From an uncultured Aliivibrio sp. (GTDB taxonomy: Bacteria > Pseudomonadota > Gammaproteobacteria > Enterobacterales > Vibrionaceae): 41,952 bases of DNA. Within the stretch, counting starts at the first letter, position 1. Every line of letters begins with the position of its first letter. Under the pieces are notes generated by a model. It saw only the letters and a list, made by a program, of their open reading frames with translations. It searched no databases and was not told the origin of the DNA. The translations under genes were made by a program, and so were the position numbers. The DNA lies in the NCBI RefSeq assembly GCF_946479765.1, contig NZ_CAMLHO010000034.1, positions 1 to 41,952 of the forward strand, read 5' to 3'. Below are positions 12,475-23,571 of the stretch, one piece after another.

Positions 12475-13620
12475 TTACATTGCCGCTTTAAAAATGCTCA
12501 CAATTTCATCATGTGTTGCTTGTTGAGGGTTAGTAAACCCACACGCATCTTTTAATGCATTTTCAGCTAGCGTATCAAAGTCTTCTTCTTTTGCATTTAG
12601 CTCAGTAAGACCTGAAGGAATACCAACATCTTTTGATAGCACCTTAATTACATCAAGTGCCGCTTGAGCACCCTCTTCGTTCGTCATACCTTCTACATTT
12701 ACGCCCATTGCTTTTGCCACGTCTTTTAAACGCTCTGGACATACTTTTGCGTTGTAGCTTTGTACATGAGGAAGAAGAATGGCATTACATACGCCATGTG
12801 GAAGATCGTAAAAACCACCCAATTGGTGTGCCATCGCGTGAACATAACCTAAAGAAGCGTTGTTGAATGCCATGCCAGCCATGAATTGTGCGTACGCCAT
12901 TTGCTCACGCGCTTCAAGATTCTGACCATCTTCTACCGCGGTGCGTAAATGTGCTTGAATTAGTTCCATCGCTTTAATCGCTACGGCATCTGTGATTGGT
13001 GTTGCCGCAATAGACACATACGCTTCTATTGCATGCGTTAATGCATCCATACCTGTCGCAGCGGTTAATGAGGCCGGTTTAGCAAGCATTAGCTCAGGAT
13101 CATTCACCGACATTAACGGCGTTGTGTGCTTATCAACAATCGCCATTTTAATGTGACGTGCTTCATCGGTAATAATACAGAAACGCGTCATTTCTGATGC
13201 CGTGCCTGCCGTTGTATTGATAGCAACTAAAGGCATTTGAGGTTTTGGCGATTGATCTACGCCTTCATAATCCCCAATTTCGCCACCATTTGCCGCCACT
13301 AAAGCGATTCCTTTAGCGCAATCGTGTGGTGAACCGCCACCTAGCGAAATCACTAAATCACAATTATTTTCTTTTAGAATGACAAGACCAGCCTTTACGT
13401 TACCAATGGTTGGGTTAGGTTGTGTGCCATCAAAAACAGCCACTTCAATATCACGCTCAGCAAGCAAATCAGACACTTGCTTAACCATGCCGATTGCAAC
13501 TAATACATTATCAGTAACGATTAACGCTTTTTTGTAGCCTTGAGATTTGATGCTGTCCATTGCTTCTGTAAGACAACCCGCACCCATTAGATTTATGCTA
13601 GGGATAAAAAATGCACTCAT
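12475..13620 (-). CDS. yiaY: Iron-containing alcohol dehydrogenase, YiaY type
   Basis: Group III, Fe(II)-dependent, NAD(P)-linked alcohol dehydrogenase of 381 residues, nearly collinear with E. coli YiaY (383). The start ATG at 13620 has GGAG six bases upstream; the longer TTG frame is unnecessary. The nucleotide-binding [14 protein letters not shown] loop and the metal ligands in [23 protein letters not shown] and LPHGVCN are present. It probably interconverts short-chain alcohols and aldehydes in fermentation or alcohol use; the true substrate is unknown. Transcribed alone. The 197 bp upstream holds a weak FNR-like sequence and a palindrome. Confidence 0.92.
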
Positions 13621-13693
13621 AATCAACTCCAATATAATTCATATAAAATTTAACAACTGGTTATGTTGTACCACTTTTTGATTATGCTTATTT

Positions 13694-13817: not shown

Positions 13818-14534
13818 TTAAACACTTAATACGTGGCCATTCTCTTTAAGCCATTTTTTACACTCTTGAAAATCAGGCATCACTCTTTCAACTTCTTTCC
13901 AAAACTGAGGCGAATGATCGTGATGAATGAGATGACACAATTCATGAATCACCACATAATCCACCACGCGATTTGGCGCTTGCATGATTAGCCAATTAAA
14001 TTCTAAATCTCCGTAAGGCGTACAACTCCCCCAACGGCTTTTAAACTCTTTAATTCGAATAACCGCGGTTTCAACTCCCACCATCGGCGCATAGCGGTGA
14101 ACTTTTTCACGAATTTTCTTTTCAGCATTCCGCTTATACCAGTTCACCAAGGCACGATTAATATACTGCGGTTGATGCTTAGGTTCAGGCACCGTGACCA
14201 GAATGCGCCCCGCAATCAATTTGGTTTGAGTTAGATCACCTGCCACCACTTTTAAACGATAATTACGCCCAAGGTAAGGGAAAGCTTCACCCGATACATA
14301 CTCTCTCGTATTCATCGGTCTCACATGCTGATTTAACGCGAGCTTTTCGATAATCCACTGGTGTTTATCTGTAATTAACTTTTCTATGCGTTCAAGATCG
14401 AGCTTTCTTGGCACAACGACAACGACCTTTCCCTCTTCCACTTTAATGGATGCGGTTTTTCTACGAGAAGTACGCTCAATGTAAACACCATAACTTTCTC
14501 GTTGAATCAGTTCTGCCTTTTTCTCTTTTGCCAT
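13818..14534 (-). CDS. ygjP: YgjP-like zinc metallopeptidase (DUF45), last gene of hsd operon
   Basis: 238-residue protein of the YgjP/DUF45 family, related to WLM/SprT-type zinc peptidases. The active site is HELCHLIHHDHSPQFW, with HExxH and a downstream His/Glu-containing helix. The conserved KSRWGSC block lies about 35 residues before it. The ATG begins 1 bp after the hsdR stop, with GGAAATAAG as ribosome site inside hsdR, so translation is coupled. Genes of this family often trail type I restriction operons; their role there is not established. A house-cleaning or regulatory protease acting on the restriction complex is speculation. Confidence 0.85.
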   Translation of the reverse strand: MAKEKKAELIQRESYGVYIERTSRRKTASIKVEEGKVVVVVPRKLDLERIEKLITDKHQWIIEKLALNQHVRPMNTREYVSGEAFPYLGRNYRLKVVAGDLTQTKLIAGRILVTVPEPKHQPQYINRALVNWYKRNAEKKIREKVHRYAPMVGVETAVIRIKEFKSRWGSCTPYGDLEFNWLIMQAPNRVVDYVVIHELCHLIHHDHSPQFWKEVERVMPDFQECKKWLKENGHVLSV

Positions 14535-14535
14535 G

Positions 14536-17500
14536 CTACTTATTTCCGAACTTGGTTTTCGCCAAATCCATAAAGCGATCTTGTAGAACCGTTACCAAAG
14601 CTTTATCACCAAATGGTTGATCAAGCACAGCACGCTTGATCTCTTTCTTCATGCGTTTTATTTCATCTTGCTTATTGAAGAAGTCGACAATTTCCGTCGC
14701 TTCATCAAGCATGATAACTAACGCTTGCGTTACCGCTTTAATCTCATCATGAGTTGATTCGGCAATCACATCGCCATCACTGACGTTGGTGACTTCGGCG
14801 ATAAGAATATTGTAAAAAGCGAACTCAGTTTCAGACAAGCCGACATCTTGCGCCGCCTGTTGATACGCTGAGCCAATATCCCCTCTCATCTCTAACATTA
14901 ACTCAAGTTGCTGTGCCCATTTACCAGCTGTTTTTTCGATAATGTCACGCAGACGTAAACTCAATGAATGGTAAAATTCAGGGTCTTCATCCAAATTAAT
15001 CGTAATATGGTGCTTAATGGCATTTTCTATTTCAGACGCTTTAGATTCGTCCGATTTAATCGCTGTAATGCTTTCTTTAAAATTGGCTGCCAGTAAATCA
15101 ATCGGTGCGATTTTCGGATCAACCCCCGTGCTAAGAATATGCTCATCCACTAATTGGCGCACTTTGGCACCAATGTCGTTCATGTCTAGCCCTTCGTCTC
15201 GATATTTGGTTTTCGAGGCATTGTGGATCTTGCCTAATAACTTCATATCAGGAATAAACGGAGCGGCCTCAGCATCGGGCAGAATAACGTTAAGCTGCTT
15301 ACCAAACTGCTTAAATGCCATGTCAAATTGCGCTCGCACTGTTTCATCTTTTAATGCTAAAACGTAATCATCAATATCGTCACTCGGTTTACCGTTATTA
15401 AGTACCTGCTTAAAGAACGACATGGCACGAGTATGCTTGGCTTTTAGCTTTGGTATCTCATCTTTTAAGCTTTGATACGACCCTTCTACATCATCGCTGC
15501 TGAACAGTTCCAACGCCTCAGTAAGGTACGTTGCTAACCCATGATAATCCACCACATAACCGCATGATTTGTTTTTATAAGTCCGGTTAACGCGGGCAAT
15601 GGCCTGCATTAAGGTGTGATCTTGCAGCTTTCTGTCGATGTACATCACTTGGGCAATAGGCGCATCAAAGCCCGTTAACAGCATGTCTTTCACTATTAAA
15701 AAAGCAGTGTTGTTAAACTTTTTATTTTCCTCTTTTGTACCTTGCTTATCGATACCAAAAGGCTTTTTAAAATTGGTGATGACTTTCTTTTGATGCACTT
15801 TATCCGTGTATTGAGTCAGATACTTTTCATCATTGTGATCGCCAGAGATAATCACCTCTGAGTGAGGCGCACCTAATTCATCTAACGTCTTTTTAAAGAT
15901 AGCCGCCGCATGACGACTGCCCACCACGATCATTGCTTTAAAGCCATCAGGACGAATATGTTCTTTATAGTGTTTGATTAAATCGATACAAACCCAACGA
16001 ATACGAGCTGGAGCTTCACGAACCGCCTTTTCTACACCGTATTTTCTTTTGATCTCACGCTGTTCCTCTTCGGTATATTCGCCAAAGTATTCTTCAAACA
16101 GCTTATCGAGTGAATCACCTGCCACTTCCGATTTCACTTCACGGCCTTCATAAAGCAATTTAACCGTTGCGCCATCTTCTACTGCTTGGTTGATTTTGTA
16201 CTCATCGATGTAACCACCAAACGCTTGGCTCATTTTTTGAGTTTTCAGCAATGGCGTTCCGGTGAAACCAATTTTAGGCGCATTGGGTAACGCGGCATTA
16301 ATCGTCATTGCCAAACCACCAAATTGGGTTCGGTGCGCTTCATCGGCAAGAACAATGATTTTGTCGCTTGGGTTTAAATCAGCAAAGCCTTCTGCTACTG
16401 TTTTTTGCTTCTCTTGTTCTTTTTCGAGATCAGCAAATTTTTGTACCATCGCGGTCACAAGATCAGAGCTGTCTTTCTTTAGTAATTCTTTTAATTCTGC
16501 CACGGAGCCTGCGTTATACACCGTCTCACCCTGCGCATCACGGAAGGTATTTGATAGCTGCTCATCAAGTTGAGTTCGGTCGGTAATAAACACCAACTTA
16601 TACTGTTTTAATTCGGCATCACGACGCATTTTTACGGCAAGCATCACCATGGTCAGTGATTTACCACTGCCTTGAGTATGCCAAACTACGCCACTTCTTT
16701 CTTTTCGATCCTTGCCTGATTTCAATCGTTCAATCACTTTATTAACCGCGCGATATTGCTGATAACGTGCCACTTTTTTAATTAAGCGACCGTCATCAGT
16801 TTCAAATAATATGAAGTTTTGCAGAATATCGAGAAAGTTTGAAATACTGAACATGCCCGCCAATAAACGCTGTTGCGCGGTAACTTCTGTTAATACCTCA
16901 TAACTTGCTGCTGGCTCGGCGGCTTGTTGCCACTCATCATGCTTTGCTAAGTTATCTTCACTCTCGTCTAACGCATCGTCAGGGATTTGAACTGTAATAG
17001 CAGAATGAAGTGGAACGATATTATCGCGTAATGACTGTTGTGCTAATTGTGCATCAGAAAAAGGATACGCGTCTTTCCAATCACCATAATGCTGACTGTT
17101 TGAGCTGATGGTGCCCACTTTGGCTTGATCTCGACAGGTCGATACCATGAGTTGGTTATACCAAAACAGTTTTTCAGCCCCTTCGTGATCATCGGTATGA
17201 CGTAGATTCGCGTAACGGCGCAATTGATTAATGCCATCACTCATCGGCGCGGAGATATATGGTGATTTACATTCAATCACGGCGAGCGGAATGCCATTAA
17301 CAAAGCAGACAATATCAGGAATGATACTTTGGTTTGCGCCTTCTACTTTAAATTGGTTGGTACATAAGAATTCGTTATTGCTTGGGGTTTCAAAATCAAC
17401 CAGTTTAACCGTCTGCCCTTTTCGCCCTTTGCCTAAGTCTTGCTCTACTGAGAGGTAATTAACCATGGTTTGATAGAAGGCGTGGTTATATTCCATTAAG

Positions 17501-17754
17501 GCGGCGAAATTAGGATGCGTGACTTCACGAGAGACTTTGCGAAGGTTCTCATCACTTATCCACGGATTAATGCGTTTAATCGCGGCTTCAAGGCGTTTGA
17601 CTAACACCACGTCACGCAGGTAAGTACGCTCAGGAATGCCATCGGCGCAAGCATAATCTGGTGACAATTGTTTACCTTGAATGTAAGTCCACCCAAGTTG
17701 AACCAACTGAGCAATGGCAGGGGCTTCTACTTTATTGAATTCGTTGTTAGCCAA
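14536..17754 (-). CDS. hsdR: Type I restriction enzyme R subunit
   Basis: Motor and nuclease subunit of a type I restriction-modification complex, 1072 residues. The PD-ExK nuclease is at the N terminus (D147, then E161-C-K163). The superfamily 2 translocase follows: Walker A QGSGKS at 361-366, DEAH at 471-474, FTGTPL at 497-502, and a motif VI-like region MQAIARVNRTYKNK. The C-terminal helical part docks onto HsdM/HsdS. All key motifs are intact, so the enzyme is probably active. The start appears to be TTG at 17754, since no in-frame ATG or GTG is better placed. It follows the HNH gene by 26 bp rather than sitting beside hsdS or hsdM as is usual. Confidence 0.95.
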   Translation of the reverse strand: MANNEFNKVEAPAIAQLVQLGWTYIQGKQLSPDYACADGIPERTYLRDVVLVKRLEAAIKRINPWISDENLRKVSREVTHPNFAALMEYNHAFYQTMVNYLSVEQDLGKGRKGQTVKLVDFETPSNNEFLCTNQFKVEGANQSIIPDIVCFVNGIPLAVIECKSPYISAPMSDGINQLRRYANLRHTDDHEGAEKLFWYNQLMVSTCRDQAKVGTISSNSQHYGDWKDAYPFSDAQLAQQSLRDNIVPLHSAITVQIPDDALDESEDNLAKHDEWQQAAEPAASYEVLTEVTAQQRLLAGMFSISNFLDILQNFILFETDDGRLIKKVARYQQYRAVNKVIERLKSGKDRKERSGVVWHTQGSGKSLTMVMLAVKMRRDAELKQYKLVFITDRTQLDEQLSNTFRDAQGETVYNAGSVAELKELLKKDSSDLVTAMVQKFADLEKEQEKQKTVAEGFADLNPSDKIIVLADEAHRTQFGGLAMTINAALPNAPKIGFTGTPLLKTQKMSQAFGGYIDEYKINQAVEDGATVKLLYEGREVKSEVAGDSLDKLFEEYFGEYTEEEQREIKRKYGVEKAVREAPARIRWVCIDLIKHYKEHIRPDGFKAMIVVGSRHAAAIFKKTLDELGAPHSEVIISGDHNDEKYLTQYTDKVHQKKVITNFKKPFGIDKQGTKEENKKFNNTAFLIVKDMLLTGFDAPIAQVMYIDRKLQDHTLMQAIARVNRTYKNKSCGYVVDYHGLATYLTEALELFSSDDVEGSYQSLKDEIPKLKAKHTRAMSFFKQVLNNGKPSDDIDDYVLALKDETVRAQFDMAFKQFGKQLNVILPDAEAAPFIPDMKLLGKIHNASKTKYRDEGLDMNDIGAKVRQLVDEHILSTGVDPKIAPIDLLAANFKESITAIKSDESKASEIENAIKHHITINLDEDPEFYHSLSLRLRDIIEKTAGKWAQQLELMLEMRGDIGSAYQQAAQDVGLSETEFAFYNILIAEVTNVSDGDVIAESTHDEIKAVTQALVIMLDEATEIVDFFNKQDEIKRMKKEIKRAVLDQPFGDKALVTVLQDRFMDLAKTKFGNK

Positions 17755-17780
17755 AATGTATTCTCTGCTAAAAGAAGGGA

Positions 17781-18518
17781 TTAAACTTTACCACCATGGG
17801 TAAGCCTATCTGAATTAGGTGCAGGCACAATTGAATTACCTGTTGTCATATCAAAACAACCGCTCTCTTCGGTGCCTTCGAACGTCTGGATAAATCGAAC
17901 TTTCATATCAGGATAAGCATTAAATACTTTCATCCAGATACTAAAAAAACCAGCCTGCTTAGCCATCATAACTATCGCCGCTTTTGTACTCTCACTATTA
18001 GGCTCACTTTCCAATAATGATAAGGCGACTTGTGCCACCCCAAACGCTTCCATTCTTTGAGCACTACGGTCTAAAGCAACTTGCTGATTATTTGAATCAG
18101 TAAACACCTGAACTGGTTTTTCTAAGCCGACTAAGCGCAAGGTATTTCTAGCCATGACCTTTTGACGAGGCAGCAACTGAGGTGAATAATGAACCGTCCC
18201 ATCAAAGTCGTAATTATAAGCGTAAAACGTATTATCACGGTCGGGAAAGAGTAACCGTTTAAAATCCACTTTTTTACTGCCTTTACAGGAATTACAATTA
18301 GTACACGCTAATAAAAAATTTGACCATTTTTTTTCTAAATGCGGTTGTCCATAAGCGCCATCTTTTGGCTCAATATGCTCAACGGCCAATAAGGTGACGA
18401 TTTTCCTTTCACAATAACTGCAATATAACCCAAGACGAGAGACTAATTCAGGCTTGGCAGCTTCATATTGATTAAAATCACCAACGACAGGCGACGCTCT
18501 TTTTCTGATTGGTCGCAT
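17781..18518 (-). CDS. ptuB: HNH endonuclease, PtuB-like (Septu-type)
   Basis: 245-residue predicted nuclease. The HNH/zinc-ribbon module is at the N terminus: CSYC (33-36), EHIEPKD (47-53, catalytic H48), WSNF (65-68), then CTNCNSCKG (72-80). The remaining 160 residues are helical and unassigned. HNH proteins beginning MRPI+K, with this spacing and an AAA ATPase gene directly upstream, form the PtuA-PtuB (Septu) type of anti-phage pair and related retron effectors. The ATG lies 3 bp after the ATPase stop, with GGGGAG as ribosome site, so the two are translationally linked. Predicted to cut DNA or RNA once released or triggered by its ATPase partner; assignment to Septu rather than a sister AAA+HNH system is inference. 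Confidence 0.75.
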   Translation of the reverse strand: MRPIRKRASPVVGDFNQYEAAKPELVSRLGLYCSYCERKIVTLLAVEHIEPKDGAYGQPHLEKKWSNFLLACTNCNSCKGSKKVDFKRLLFPDRDNTFYAYNYDFDGTVHYSPQLLPRQKVMARNTLRLVGLEKPVQVFTDSNNQQVALDRSAQRMEAFGVAQVALSLLESEPNSESTKAAIVMMAKQAGFFSIWMKVFNAYPDMKVRFIQTFEGTEESGCFDMTTGNSIVPAPNSDRLTHGGKV

Positions 18519-18521
18519 TGT

Positions 18522-19814
18522 CTACTCCCCTAGTTTAGCGACTCGTTGCATTTCCAAAAAGGCTTGGAATGCAGGATTATCCGCATAAGGCGCTAATGAG
18601 TTAGCCAGTCTCTCTTTATATTGTTCAAGCTTATCTTCAGCCACCATATCCGCCTCATTTAGGGCTTTTAGGTATTCTGTCGCGACCCCTTTCATCTCCG
18701 AATATCTTTCACTGACTTCAGGTGAATTGACATTCATGATACCAACGGCAATGTCTTCTAAGGTTTTATTTGCGACCTGTACTGGCACTTGTCCATCAAG
18801 CATAATCAACTCTTCACTTGAGCGTAAAGATTGAATTAAAAATGGCGAATGCGTAGTGCAAATAAACTGAACATTTGGGAATGTAGTGCGTAAATCCTCA
18901 ATGACATGACGTTGCCATTTTGGGTGCAAATGCAGATCAAGCTCATCGATTAAAACCACACCTTCTGTTTGCTCTAAAACAGCCTCGCCAAGATGTGGGT
19001 TTAGTAATGCGGCTTTTTGAGCGATATCGGCGACTAAAGCTAACACACAGCGTTGACCATCACTTAATAAATTAAATGGTTGAGGCTCTGCGTCTTTGAG
19101 CGTTAATAGTAACTCTTCTCTTTTAGGATCATAACGTAGCTGCTCTGCGTTATCGATACAACTGACCACAGCTTTACGAACGACCGTCAACATGGTTGGC
19201 TCTTTGCCTAGCTGAAACGCTTGCCACTCTTGGCGAGCAAACCAAGCAACTAATTCTTTAAGAGCAATACGCGGATCAACACAATGCTTATAGCCATCAA
19301 GTCTGGATGGTTTGGCACTTGATTTAGTTAATGAGGGTTTGGCTTTCGATGCTTTAGGATCTTGCCATAAACGCATGGTGCCGTAATAACTAATAAGAGG
19401 CAGTGAAATATCATCAGCAAGATTGTCATCACACGCTTTCGCTAATGAAATTAGATCGCCTGCGTTGCCATAGCGAGTGTTGCCTGCTGGGGACTCTTTT
19501 GAACGCTCCCACGAGATGGCTTTTTCTTTTACCACTCCCGAGGCCGAAACAACCACAGGCCACGCCTCTATAAATTGAGCTTCATCTTCTTTTTCTACAT
19601 ACGATAAGGTGGCATCACTTGGCTCTAGTCGTTTTTTATCGTTCTTTTTCTTAAAACCAAGCAACCATGTTGCGATAGCGACAGAAACTGCATCCAGTAC
19701 CGCTGTTTTACCTGTCGCATTTTGCCCTACAATTAAATTAACTTGAGGGTGAAAACGAAACGTTTCGTCTTTATAACAACGAAAATTTTTAACTGATACG
19801 GTATGTAGTTTCAT
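18522..19814 (-). CDS. ptuA: AAA/ABC-type ATPase, PtuA-like (Septu-type)
   Basis: 430-residue SMC/RecF/OLD-like ATPase without a TOPRIM nuclease. It begins MKLHTVSVKNFRCYKDETF. Walker A GQNATGKT is at 30-37, an ABC signature LSDGQR at 250-255, Walker B VVLIDELD at 286-293 and a switch histidine in THSP at 321-324. The layout equals that of PtuA, the ATPase that forms the scaffold and regulator for the HNH nuclease PtuB. No reverse transcriptase or ncRNA gene accompanies it, which argues against a retron version. It follows hsdS after a 174-bp spacer holding G-rich repeats and leads directly into ptuB. Motifs are intact. Confidence 0.78.
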   Translation of the reverse strand: MKLHTVSVKNFRCYKDETFRFHPQVNLIVGQNATGKTAVLDAVSVAIATWLLGFKKKNDKKRLEPSDATLSYVEKEDEAQFIEAWPVVVSASGVVKEKAISWERSKESPAGNTRYGNAGDLISLAKACDDNLADDISLPLISYYGTMRLWQDPKASKAKPSLTKSSAKPSRLDGYKHCVDPRIALKELVAWFARQEWQAFQLGKEPTMLTVVRKAVVSCIDNAEQLRYDPKREELLLTLKDAEPQPFNLLSDGQRCVLALVADIAQKAALLNPHLGEAVLEQTEGVVLIDELDLHLHPKWQRHVIEDLRTTFPNVQFICTTHSPFLIQSLRSSEELIMLDGQVPVQVANKTLEDIAVGIMNVNSPEVSERYSEMKGVATEYLKALNEADMVAEDKLEQYKERLANSLAPYADNPAFQAFLEMQRVAKLGE

Positions 19815-19903
19815 TGAGTTACCAACGTAAAGAAATATCTGCCTAACATCTTAACCTATAACCACTGTCTTTTCAGGTGGTTGCTTCACTATTTTTATGT
19901 CCC

Positions 19904-19939
19904 GACTTGGGGGGTGACTTAGGGGGTAACTTGGGGGGT
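19904..19939. repeat. Three tandem 12-bp G-rich repeats
   Basis: Three consecutive copies of GACTTGGGGGGT (second GACTTAGGGGGT, third AACTTGGGGGGT). On the transcribed strand the repeats are C-rich. They stand out against AT-rich surroundings and lie between hsdS and the ATPase gene. Confidence 0.9.
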
Positions 19940-19967
19940 CATTGATAATAATCACCAATGCCCCAAG
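19930..19967. repeat. Inverted repeat at hsdS/ptuA junction
   Basis: CTTGGGG...CATTG on the left pairs with CAATGCCCCAAG on the right around ATAATAATCAC, with a 3-base bulge. It begins 22 bp after the hsdS stop and overlaps the third G-rich repeat. It could act as an intercistronic hairpin or attenuator; no T-run follows in the minus direction. Confidence 0.7.
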
Positions 19968-19988
19968 GTGTAGTTGACGCTAATGTGG

Positions 19989-21257
19989 TTATTCTATGTC
20001 TATCTTTACTCGTACTTTACCTGTTAGGAGATCTTGCATAAGGGCTTTTTTGGTATTTTTTAGAGAACTTAATTTATATTCTTTTACTTTAATCTTATTA
20101 GAAATAGAAGCCACCACATCAGAGATTCTCACTTGCTCTTCTAAAGAAGGGGAAGGAATTAAATATTTTCCAAATTCGTTGAAATCAATACTTTCAACGG
20201 TATTGCCCGCCTTTAATGTTGCTCGTAACACTGTATGATTATGAGCTTGTAAATAATAAAATATGAAATTAACACAATAACCTTTAGATACAGAAAGAGC
20301 TTTCATATCTTGATTAATGGTTAGATCACAAGCGGCAATTGCCACTGGTAACGTATGTTGTAAAATACCACTTCTTACAACCATCAAAAGCGAATTTTTA
20401 GTTATTAAATTAGTAGATGACCCTTTAATCGCATCTTCTGTTATAAGATCTTTTGTGCGAGAGATAAAATCTAATTTCATGTCTTTAGGAGATACCCAAG
20501 GTATTGAACCAGACCAATAATCTTTATTTGATTTACTTGGTGTACCACCACCTTTCCACTTGCCTGTATCCGATAACTTAACAACCTCCCACCCCTTCGG
20601 GATTCTACCCACTGGTGAGTCTTTAAACTCGGTATGTGGTTTTCCATCTACACCGACACCGCGCGTTAATAGCTCTTGCATCATGCCTGTTTTTAGGTCT
20701 TTGAGCTTGTTAATTTGCGCCTGTGTTTTTTCAATCACTTCATCGACAGAGGTGAGGATAGCGGCTATTTTTTGTTGTTCTGGGAGCGGTGGCAACTTTA
20801 GAACTAAAGACATTACATCTGAGCCAGGTAAATTAGCAACCGTACCTTTACGAACTAATGATTCGACTTGTTTTTTTGCATTAAATGTCTGCATAAAAAA
20901 CTTTATGTATTCAGATGATATGTCTTTTGAAGGAGTTAGGCGAATAGCATATGCGCTAGCGATATAAGGAATTTTTTGTTCATAAAACACCGCTGTCACC
21001 CCACAATCAGCGGTTGTGATCATAACTAAGTCACCATTACATAACTTGTTATTATTAACTAAGTTCCTATCCAGTTTAGCTGTTGGAACTTGTTGGTATT
21101 TAATTTCACCAACAGAAGATACATCTGTTCCTCTAATTGTTTTGACATTACCAGAATCATCATAATCTTTAGAACTAAAGCGAGGACCATATTTATAGTC
21201 ATTGAATACATCTTTAAATTTTACTGACTTCCACCCTTCAGGTACAAACTCATTCAT
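19989..21257 (-). CDS. hsdS: Type I restriction enzyme specificity subunit
   Basis: 422-residue DNA-recognition subunit with the standard two-half layout. Target recognition domain 1 covers about 1-155, the central conserved helix [20 protein letters not shown]... about 156-200, domain 2 about 213-380 (entered by [10 protein letters not shown]), and a C-terminal conserved helix follows. Each half specifies one part of a bipartite site; the sequence recognised cannot be read from the protein. The ATG overlaps the end of hsdM by 8 bp. The recognition domains look more AT-rich than the flanking hsdM and hsdR, as expected if they were exchanged by recombination. Confidence 0.95.
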
Positions 21258-23013
21258 AGCCCAACTCCTTCAAGTAACTTTGCATTACTTGTTCGGCTTC
21301 GGTCACTTGTGCATCTAACTCATGCAGTGATACTTGGTATTTGTCCCACCAGTGTTCTAATTGGCTGATGATCTTCGCATCAACATCACCGACTGCTTCT
21401 TCAACAACCGTACGGATCTGCTCTTTACTTTCAATGCTTAGTTTGAATGCATAATAGTCGTTGTCTTTTTTATCACTTTTTATATCAAAGACGGCCGACA
21501 CATCAAAGCCGTTTAACATCTCTTCTTGAATGTAGGTATCATTCACTTCACGCATTGGAATGCCACCGTGAAGGATCGCACGCACATCAAAGATCTCCGC
21601 CGGAGGTGAGGTATCGGCATAACGGCGAATGTTAAGGTTAAAATCGTTCTCAGCAATTTCAGAGAATGGAACCACACGTGCGTAACGCTTAATATCACAC
21701 TTGCTTTCAAACGAATGGTTTTCAAAGGTGGCGACAATTTTAGCAATATCTTCTGGGCGCAGTTTGTTTTGGTTTTTGCCCTCTGCAAATTCCAACTCAC
21801 CATTAATGAACAACACCTTGCCTTTACGTGCGCTTGATTTGTTTTTATTAATGATAAGCAAACACGCAGGAATGCCCGTACCGTAGAATAACCCTGATGG
21901 CAAACCCACCACGGCTTCTAATAAATCGTCTTCTAAAATTCCTTGGCGAATGGCCTTTTCACTTGAGCCACGGAATAACACCCCATGAGGCATAACCACT
22001 CCGACCATGCCTTCGCTGTTGGTGCTGGCGATCATGTGTTGTACAAAAGCTAAATCACCCGCGTCTTTTGGTGGTGTTCCGTAAGGGAAACGTCCAAAAC
22101 CGTCGTTATCGCACTCGTCTTTGCCCCACTTTTTCAGTGAGAACGGAGGGTTGGCAATAACGCGGTCAAAGCTCATTAGCTCGCCGCCTTCGGTGTGCTG
22201 TGGGTCACGCAGTGTATCGCCTTTACGAATATCGGCATTTTGTACGCCATGTAAGAACATGTTCATCTTACAAATTGCCCATGTGTTCAAGTTCATCTCT
22301 TGACCATACAGTGACAAGTTAGCGGCATTTTCACCCTGCTTTTCTAATTGGTTACGCGTTTGAACAAGCATACCGCCCGACCCTGATGTTGGATCGTAAA
22401 TACGCATTCCGGCATGGGGCTTTAATAACTCAACCAATAGCTGAACCACTTCGCTTGGGGTATAAAACTCACCGCCTTTTTTGCCTGCGCTGTCGGCAAA
22501 CATTTTAATCAGGTATTCGTAAGCCGTACCCAGTAAATCAGGACGGTCAAAGTCTTCATTACGTAAGCGATATTTATTGAAATGCGACAGTAAATCTTGC
22601 AGCTTTTTATCTGACAGTTTGTTTTTGATGTTGAAATCAATCGTCACTAACACGCCTTCTAGCGCCGAGTTAAACTCTTCAATCGATTCTGTCGCTTTGT
22701 TTAGCGTTTCACCGATGTTGTGCTTTACATCTTTAAGCACTGACCAACGGGCGTTTTCTGGGATAAAGAAGGTGCTGTCGTATTCGTCTTCATCATTCGC
22801 TAACTCTTGTGCTTGAGCCTGAGTTTTACCTTTGTCTAGGTAGTATTGAATGACTTTTTCTTGAGATTCTTCAAAGGCATCCGATAGACGCTTTAAAAAC
22901 ATCATGCCGAAGATGTAATCTTTAAATTCAGACGCATCCATATTGCCACGAAGAATGTCGGCAGTTTCCCATAAGAAGGATTCGAGCTGTTGAAGAGAAA
23001 GCTTGTTAGTCAT
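21250..23013 (-). CDS. hsdM: Type I restriction enzyme methylase subunit
   Basis: 587-residue N6-adenine DNA methyltransferase. The HsdM N-terminal helical domain (about 6-140) is followed by GEFYTP (181-186), the S-adenosylmethionine motif [10 protein letters not shown] (206-214) and the catalytic motif IV NPPF (288-291). The C terminus ends in a helical region for HsdS contact. All motifs are intact. It is the first gene of the six-gene operon. The 207 bp upstream contain a CGTAC-N6-GTACG dyad that might bind a regulator. No dedicated controller gene is present. Confidence 0.96.
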
Positions 23014-23044
23014 GCAATTGTGCCTATTAAATAAGGGGCAAACT

Positions 23045-23060
23045 CGTACAAAGTGGTACG
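23045..23060. promoter_or_regulatory. Dyad CGTAC-N6-GTACG upstream of hsdM
   Basis: Perfect 5-bp arms around six bases, 32-47 bp before the hsdM ATG, in the expected promoter zone. Candidate operator for the defence operon; no matching regulator is known from the window. Confidence 0.35.
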
Positions 23061-23153
23061 GGTTTATTCAAACGAATTGATATGTGGTGGATTTTACGGG
23101 GTTATAGAGTTGGGGGCAATCGAACCGTAAGATAAACGTAGAGAATGGGTAAG

Positions 23154-23220: not shown

Positions 23221-23571
23221 TTAAGAACGCTTTGGCTGCTGGTACGTTTTACCTGCGGCTTGGTACGTTTCTTTTTGCTTCATATCAAACATTGCGTAGA
23301 AGAACCAAGCGACGAATTTAATCACATCATCACCTTCGTTCATGATCCACTCTGCAAGCTCTTGAGTTTCGCCGTTTTCGTCTTCATCATTAAATACATG
23401 ATAAATACGTTGCTCACCTTCAACTTCAGCAAGACGGAATTGACCCGCCAGTGATTCAGCTGCTTCAACGATATCTTGGTCTTCACATGCTTTTAATGCT
23501 TCTAGCACTTGAGGAAGGTTTTCTTTTTGGCACAATTCTTTAACTAGTATTTCAAATTCATTCTGTTGCAT
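23221..23571 (-). CDS. Conserved acidic protein, function unknown
   Basis: 116-residue soluble protein, strongly acidic in the middle (NDEDENGETQELAEWIMNEGDD), with a short aromatic helix FVAWFFYAMFD near residue 90 and a basic, glutamine-rich tail. No catalytic motif, signal peptide or membrane anchor was recognised. It is divergent from metC and has its own terminator, so it is not part of the hsd operon. It is probably a core-genome gene bordering the defence island. No function can be offered. Confidence 0.7.
   Translation of the reverse strand: MQQNEFEILVKELCQKENLPQVLEALKACEDQDIVEAAESLAGQFRLAEVEGEQRIYHVFNDEDENGETQELAEWIMNEGDDVIKFVAWFFYAMFDMKQKETYQAAGKTYQQPKRS

Follow-up and report, generated by a model that had tools for sequence, protein, structure and literature searches.

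A type I Septu module as probable cargo between hsdS and hsdR of a type I restriction-modification operon in Aliivibrio

Why do an ATPase gene and an HNH nuclease gene stand between hsdS and hsdR of a type I restriction-modification (R-M) operon? The question is raised by a 41,952-nucleotide stretch of DNA from an uncultured Aliivibrio sp. (NCBI RefSeq assembly GCF_946479765.1, contig NZ_CAMLHO010000034.1, positions 1 to 41,952; hereafter, the window), in which six minus-strand genes at 13818-23013 lie in the order hsdM-hsdS-ptuA-ptuB-hsdR-ygjP, without internal stops in a check of their reading frames. Calculation from the coordinates bore out the tight spacing described in a first-pass annotation of this DNA: hsdM and hsdS overlap by 8 bp, and the next gaps are 174, 3, 26 and 1 bp. 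The account that we consider likely is that a type I Septu module (ptuA and ptuB) was inserted as payload into an established cargo slot that separates hsdS from hsdR, and that it is exchanged through the operon and expressed with it. This account is built on the intact genes, their family membership, the insertion relative to cargo-free copies, the other cargoes and the conserved nested order, to which its remaining parts are added by inference. The features involved are the following.

21250..23013, minus strand: hsdM, type I methyltransferase subunit, 587 aa (PADLOC MTase_I, E 4.1e-215; Pfam N6_Mtase and HsdM_N)
19989..21257, minus strand: hsdS, specificity subunit, 422 aa (PADLOC Specificity_I, E 1.1e-66; Pfam Methylase_S, two stretches)
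18522..19814, minus strand: ptuA, Septu ABC-type ATPase, 430 aa (PADLOC PDLC00278, PDB 8ee4, motifs)
17781..18518, minus strand: ptuB, Septu HNH nuclease, 245 aa (PADLOC PDLC00315, Pfam HNH)
14536..17754, minus strand: hsdR, type I restriction subunit, 1072 aa, TTG start (PADLOC REase_I, E 2.1e-134)
13818..14534, minus strand: ygjP-like zinc metallopeptidase gene, 238 aa (Pfam YgjP-like, E 2e-65)
17749..19885, minus strand: inserted cassette of 2,137 bp, with a 71-bp leader, ptuA, ptuB and the first hsdR codons (blastn breakpoints against the related copies L065 and L070)
19886..19988, minus strand: 103-bp scar directly after hsdS, common to two cargo-free operon copies
23091..23119, minus strand: promoter-like site upstream of hsdM, TTGCCC-17-TAAAAT (9/12 matches, weak on its own)

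By its sequence the inner pair is PtuA/PtuB of Septu type I. PtuA matched PADLOC family PDLC00278 over residues 1-428 (E 1.7e-145), and its closest solved structure was the PtuA 8ee4 (E 2e-42), followed by the PtuA chains of retron I-A. PtuB, encoded on the same strand after the 3-bp gap, matched PDLC00315 (E 4.8e-80) and scored 30.6 bits against Pfam HNH, above the cut-off of 21.4. The PtuA/PtuB architecture proposed in the first-pass annotation therefore holds, neither protein having fallen into an unrelated family, and a script recovered the motifs it had cited: Walker A GQNATGKT (residues 30-37), the signature LSDGQR (250-255) and Walker B VVLIDELD (286-293) in PtuA, and CSYC (33-36), H48 and CTNC (72-75) in PtuB. 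From the 21 available rows, L028 (divergent) was left out of the PtuA alignment (20 rows), and L028 and the truncated L020 were left out of the PtuB alignment; in the 19 rows of the latter C33, C36, H48, N67, C72 and N76 were invariant and C75 nearly so. Judged by motif pattern, not by alignment, H48 and N67 would be equivalent to the published H75 and N91, and published PtuAB defence is reported to require both the ATPase and the HNH residues (PMC13096335). The window pair thus resembles known Septu type I in matching both PADLOC profiles nearly full length and in its conserved motifs, and differs from it in being inserted in a type I R-M operon and in a PtuB far from the solved PtuB-like chains, to which it is only weakly similar (best E 1.5e-4). 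The genome of the window (3.8 Mb, 120 contigs) gave as its sole second PtuA match a weak N-terminal one (E 2.4e-5).

Other identities for the pair were considered and rejected. With retron I-A (Ec78/Eco7; Septu type II) it shares the PtuA/PtuB effectors, but there is no reverse transcriptase: ptuA is preceded by hsdS, the genes from hsdM to ygjP all have other identities, and the NCBIfam retron PtuA and PtuB models scored well under their cut-offs (205.6 of 500 and 38.1 of 150 bits). A MADS reading failed likewise, MAD2, MAD3 and MAD5 reaching 76 of 720, 32 of 420 and 18.3 of 400 bits, all below the NCBIfam cut-offs. At E 0.01 the complete Pfam and NCBIfam lists contained no family named for PrrC for either protein, nor was one among the best 25 of 168 and the best 25 of 45 PADLOC families for these two proteins.

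PADLOC names the genes around the pair as type I R-M, so Septu does split hsdR from hsdM and hsdS, as the annotation had stated, and the profiles together with the frame check found HsdM, HsdS and HsdR all present and intact. HsdM scored 264.3 bits against NCBIfam TIGR00497 (cut-off 242.75) and HsdR 555.6 bits against TIGR00348 (cut-off 284.55). The script located NPPF at 288 in HsdM, GSGKS at 362, DEAH at 471 and PD...ECK at 146-163 in HsdR, and HELCH at 197 in the YgjP-like protein; the statement of the first-pass annotation that the key motifs of both systems look intact agrees with these results.

Copies from the same genus carry traces of insertion and turnover at this place. Of the 14 genomes of the genus, 5 encode HsdR. 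The window operon is flanked by a 116-aa gene (23221-23571), separated from hsdM by 207 bp and found in all 13 same-genus genomes searched, and by an alcohol-dehydrogenase-like gene (12475-13632; named by eye). In a comparison of this site that leaves out G1141, the operon carried ptuAB in the window and in G1126, carried a Fic gene in G1114 (77% identical to the Fic of a V. rumoiensis plasmid) and had no cargo in G1132; the two flanking genes lay side by side in seven genomes (G1102, G1106, G1110, G1118, G1122, G1129 and G1135), G219 had neither the operon nor, at this place, the dehydrogenase gene, and G1138 had other genes at the site and a cargo-free operon elsewhere. HsdR was 97-98% identical to that of the window in the cargo-free copies L065 and L070 and in the Fic-bearing L064, and since one genus thus holds the operon with PtuAB, with Fic and without cargo, cargo and restriction could be studied apart with near-identical parts.

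Compared with L065 and L070, 2,137 bp of the window (17749-19885) replace 27 bp, while the 103 bp after hsdS are common to them at 100/103 and 99/103 bases. Within this scar, 38 bp match the repeat linker of the G1114 Fic gene at 36/38. Searched against the slots of five related operons, this stretch gave a best score of 44.1 bits (to a plasmid Fic gene), compared with 30.2 for the best of 500 shuffles and 28.2 for the best of 500 other window segments; it is a 12-bp repeat of low complexity with no similarity beyond the repeat, present as a single unit in L056, and we tentatively take it as a likely, not certain, relic of Fic. In V. ouci (L003), a leftover hsdR start (25/28 bases; 12/14 residues in frame) lies between another cargo gene and ptuA, as expected if ptuAB and its hsdR had joined at the hsdR 5' end. 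Because the right edge of the insertion also lies there, cargo exchange probably proceeds via the conserved 5' end of hsdR. The other cargo gene of V. ouci (L003, 5510-6544) encodes a 344-aa protein between hsdS and ptuA with a possible E-x-K nuclease motif, seen by eye, and gave no Pfam match at 1e-3 and no PADLOC match at 1e-4.

The same slot holds quite different genes in other members of the order, where relatives of the window HsdR were found at E 1e-100 in 9 of 394 genomes, window included. L038 carries a 411-aa gene, IS66 genes and the PADLOC candidates PDC-M15A/B; L039 a 469-aa gene and PDC-S26 (PD-(D/E)XK family); L041 DarT and DarG; L044 a dCTP-deaminase-type defence protein; and L045 PDC-S05. 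No cargo was seen in L040, L042 and L043, the last having a PDC-S13 protein between hsdM and hsdS. On plasmids, where 2 of 26 HsdR records were opened, two Vibrio plasmids with an HsdR 79% identical to the window's carried Fic with AbiEi/AbiEii in one case and Fic with two hypothetical proteins in the other. Among 17 related copies (the relatives in the order, the two plasmids, the copies with close PtuA and the same-genus copies), 12 had cargo and 5 had none, and a metallopeptidase gene followed hsdR in all 17, in 15 by YgjP similarity and in the two plasmid copies by annotation as an SprT-family metalloprotease. So many unrelated cargoes argue for a general cargo site rather than a partnership specific to PtuAB. 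As a separate observation, L038 (9990-11225) and L039 (8756-10165) encode related proteins (25% identical), each from the first same-strand cargo gene after hsdS in slots that are otherwise different.

The nested order has been kept. PtuA at E 1e-60 was found in 9 of 296 genomes of the family, window included, and the four close copies (80-100% identity; hereafter, clade A) are all nested: the window, L056 (genome G1126), L003 (V. ouci, G1324) and L057 (G1136), each with the order hsdM-hsdS-(x)-ptuA-ptuB-hsdR-ygjP, and with HsdM and HsdR of the other three 78-98% identical to the window's. The order therefore recurs beyond a single strain, and in the window it is unbroken, in line with the first-pass annotation. 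A scan of genome contigs with single proteins gave one locus, that of V. ouci, and a search across the order of G844 returned G844 itself (1/78). Between the window and L056, the ratio of nonsynonymous to synonymous differences (pN/pS) was 0.084 for hsdM, 0.066 for ptuA, 0.132 for ptuB, 0.033 for hsdR and 0.098 for ygjP; the ratios with L003 and L057 were not used, synonymous sites being saturated or nearly so. The same order in other genomes and the low pN/pS of ptuA and ptuB indicate that the arrangement is more than chance.

HsdS of the window (19989-21257) and of L056 (6956-8239), at the same site, are 36% identical beside 94-99% for the other five genes, as expected of specificity exchange. 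PtuB identity lay below that of PtuA in all three clade A comparisons (95 vs 99, 53 vs 84 and 66 vs 80%); the 53% refers to the window (17781-18518) and L003 (8001-8738), where PtuA is 84% and HsdR 83-84% identical; in that pair PtuB identity was lowest at residues 96-190 (36%). We do not claim PtuB as a faster-changing specificity part, since of 4 further pairs 3 had a PtuB at least as conserved as their PtuA.

With the genome of the window counted at each level, a wider search for PtuB (PDLC00315 at E 1e-20 or better) matched 4 of 394 genomes in the order, 2 of 369 in the class and 8 of 398 in the phylum; the 14 control genomes gave no match. The search yielded 12 other loci, two of them in one genome, and in two of the 12 (L020 and L026; clade B) the pair is again nested between hsdS and hsdR. 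Plasmids gave three distant PtuA matches at 1e-40 and no PtuB match at 1e-5. In a tree of 21 PtuA (all kept, L028 forming a long branch, rooted at the midpoint only), the nested state needs two changes, forced by well-supported branches, which means two separate nestings if the root lies outside the nested clades. The HsdR of clade B belongs to another PADLOC family, PDLC03047, and that of L026 is only weakly similar to the window HsdR (E 4e-5), so the nestings are in two distant type I R-M families. Identity within clade B is 76% for HsdM, 66% for HsdR and 64% for PtuA, so the nesting has persisted there too, even though L020 has a shortened hsdS and PtuB. We also noted in L026 (7203-16262) a JetC (Wadjet-type) gene directly before the nested operon and a gene matching DUF3800_VII between hsdS and ptuA.

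This recurrence could be taken to mean that HsdRMS holds PtuAB latent, and that phage anti-restriction proteins disabling HsdRMS release PtuAB, which would cut tRNA and arrest translation. There is a precedent in PrrC: its gene lies within a type Ic hsd locus, and the protein is kept silent by EcoprrI until T4 Stp releases it, according to the accounts in PMC2610378 and PMC12707154; tRNA-Tyr is reported to be cut by PtuAB of retron-Eco7 (PMC11555353) and of a free Septu (PMC13096335), and the nesting in two distant R-M families, with each nested PtuA clade (4 and 2 copies) keeping its own family, would fit. However, the nested PtuA proteins measure 422-430 aa (6 copies) as compared with 424-482 aa for the 15 others, so no added docking domain is evident, unrelated cargo occupies the same slot, and protection of E. 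coli is reported for a free Septu that was cloned with flanks of 300 bp (PMC13096335). We hold such a guard to be unlikely, though it deserves attention. A broader version, in which the slot is a plug-in socket whose HsdRMS sensor restrains any plugged-in effector (PtuAB, Fic, DarTG, AbiE or others) until a phage disables HsdRMS, PtuAB being an HNH-based equivalent of PrrC made of two proteins and having arisen repeatedly, strikes us as quite unlikely.

The account that we prefer, a payload in a cargo slot, has PtuAB expressed with the operon, which is probable from the layout of the genes. The 13-bp gap between hsdS and ptuA in L057 favours read-through. The scan for sigma-70 promoters found no match in the 174-bp hsdS-ptuA gap of the window, and it says little, since it gave fewer sites (14) than shuffled sequence (mean 23.2). 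The promoter-like site of hsdM recurs in L056, L064, L065 and L070, and its TAAAAT alone in L003 and L057. Just after it we noted by eye an inverted repeat (23040-23065), also present, with differing stems, in L056, L064, L065, L070, L003 and L057, which may be an operator or a leader hairpin; the hairpin was set aside, folding energies of five sequences not being convincingly under those of shuffles (z -1.84 to +1.02).

Several observations weigh against this account. The 174-bp gap before ptuA and the 71-bp leader leave room for a promoter of its own. In 10 of the 12 other PtuB loci, assessed only with a methylase profile run on the genomes and with BLAST to the window hsd genes, neither a methylase nor an hsd match lay close by, so Septu can do without R-M; for five distant PtuA of the family (L058-L062, 35-40% identity), BLAST against the R-M families seen here, not a profile, likewise found no type I genes beside ptuAB, L060 beginning 650 bp before ptuA so that its upstream side is barely visible. 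In Streptococcus suis, a survey reports that Septu and type I R-M avoid each other, so that general synergy finds no support there (PMC12813430). The cargo-free copies of the genus are damaged, with hsdS interrupted in both L065 (1061-4132) and L070 (9387-10670, reverse complement), hsdR full length in both and the L065 hsdM ending early (572 vs 587 aa), and instead of being simple empty slots these two copies may be operons in decay. Finally, a tree of 14 HsdR leaves 5 of its 11 inner branches open; on this tree two changes are required for the ptuAB label, which may still have a single origin, and the sequence in which cargo was gained and lost is not settled by it.

The negative association in S. 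suis would suit a merely permissive slot, in which Septu is transcribed from a promoter in the 71-bp leader and has no functional link to R-M beyond travelling together, as would the wide variety of cargo and a leader that moves with the cassette, being partly similar in L003. Against it stand insertion on the same strand at 3-bp and 26-bp spacing, the 13-bp gap of L057, the persistence of the nesting at PtuA identities of 80-99% within clade A and 64% within clade B, and, as a weak test, the lack of a promoter match in the 174-bp gap, and we regard neutral clustering as improbable. That the assembly is fortuitous or decayed and its Septu not working is hardly credible: the clade B copy L020 does have a short hsdS and a PtuB without the N-terminal HNH part, but the window genes are intact, their motifs conserved and their pN/pS low.

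If the module is indeed a payload, its working could be pictured as follows. The ptuA-ptuB pair would enter the cargo slot between hsdS and hsdR and be transcribed with the operon genes from the hsdM promoter. HsdRMS would cut unmethylated incoming DNA as a first layer. PtuA restrains PtuB until infection, and would do so here; once released, PtuB would cut nucleic acid, tRNA or DNA, and stop phages that escape restriction. The two layers would be linked by shared expression and joint transfer rather than by a dedicated protein-protein switch. The attack by the HNH protein proposed in the first-pass annotation agrees with published PtuAB, which are reported to cut DNA or tRNA-Tyr, insofar as DNA is taken as only one possible target: for the Septu of E. 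coli ATCC 25922 the reported target is DNA (PMC13096335, PMC11555353), for the others named above tRNA-Tyr. The interpretation given there is partly supported overall, teamwork between Septu and R-M being unproven.

Defence genes lodged within type I operons are a known kind of arrangement. PrrC in EcoprrI also is an ABC-type ATPase effector encoded inside a type I (type Ic) hsd locus, but the window has two proteins, an ATPase and an HNH protein, without a PrrC family match in Pfam or NCBIfam. The RRDM island (RptR-RMS-DarTG-M48) of enteropathogenic E. coli likewise has cargo between hsdS and hsdR, a site described as a potential recombination hotspot (PMC12255303), and a zinc metallopeptidase gene after hsdR; it differs in that its cargo is DarTG and an rptR gene lies upstream, whereas the window has only 207 bp from hsdM to the 116-aa gene. 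TgvAB, in VPI-2 of Vibrio cholerae, is also a two-gene defence within a type I R-M cluster, in a place likened to that between hsdR and hsdS, but is a GmrSD-like type IV restriction system; it is reported to protect without HsdR restriction activity, less well alone than the whole cluster does (PMC11411939). Septu itself is described as embedded in Hma systems (PMC12255303), and Hma as often lying beside Septu type I (PMC8565338). Among the literature matches listed we found no description of Septu between hsdS and hsdR, although a 2024 preprint by Payne and colleagues on embedded defences may contain such cases. What appears to be new is that Septu occupies this slot, that it apparently arose there more than once and that a single genus shows a series of cargoes; the novelty would fall if the AAA-like ATPase pair reported between hsdS and hsdR in four genomes (PMC12255303) were PtuAB-like.

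The locus bears on a question left by PrrC, DarTG and TgvAB, namely whether embedding in a type I operon means functional coupling or only shared transport and expression. The two apparently separate nestings of Septu at the same place make the coupling hypothesis directly testable.

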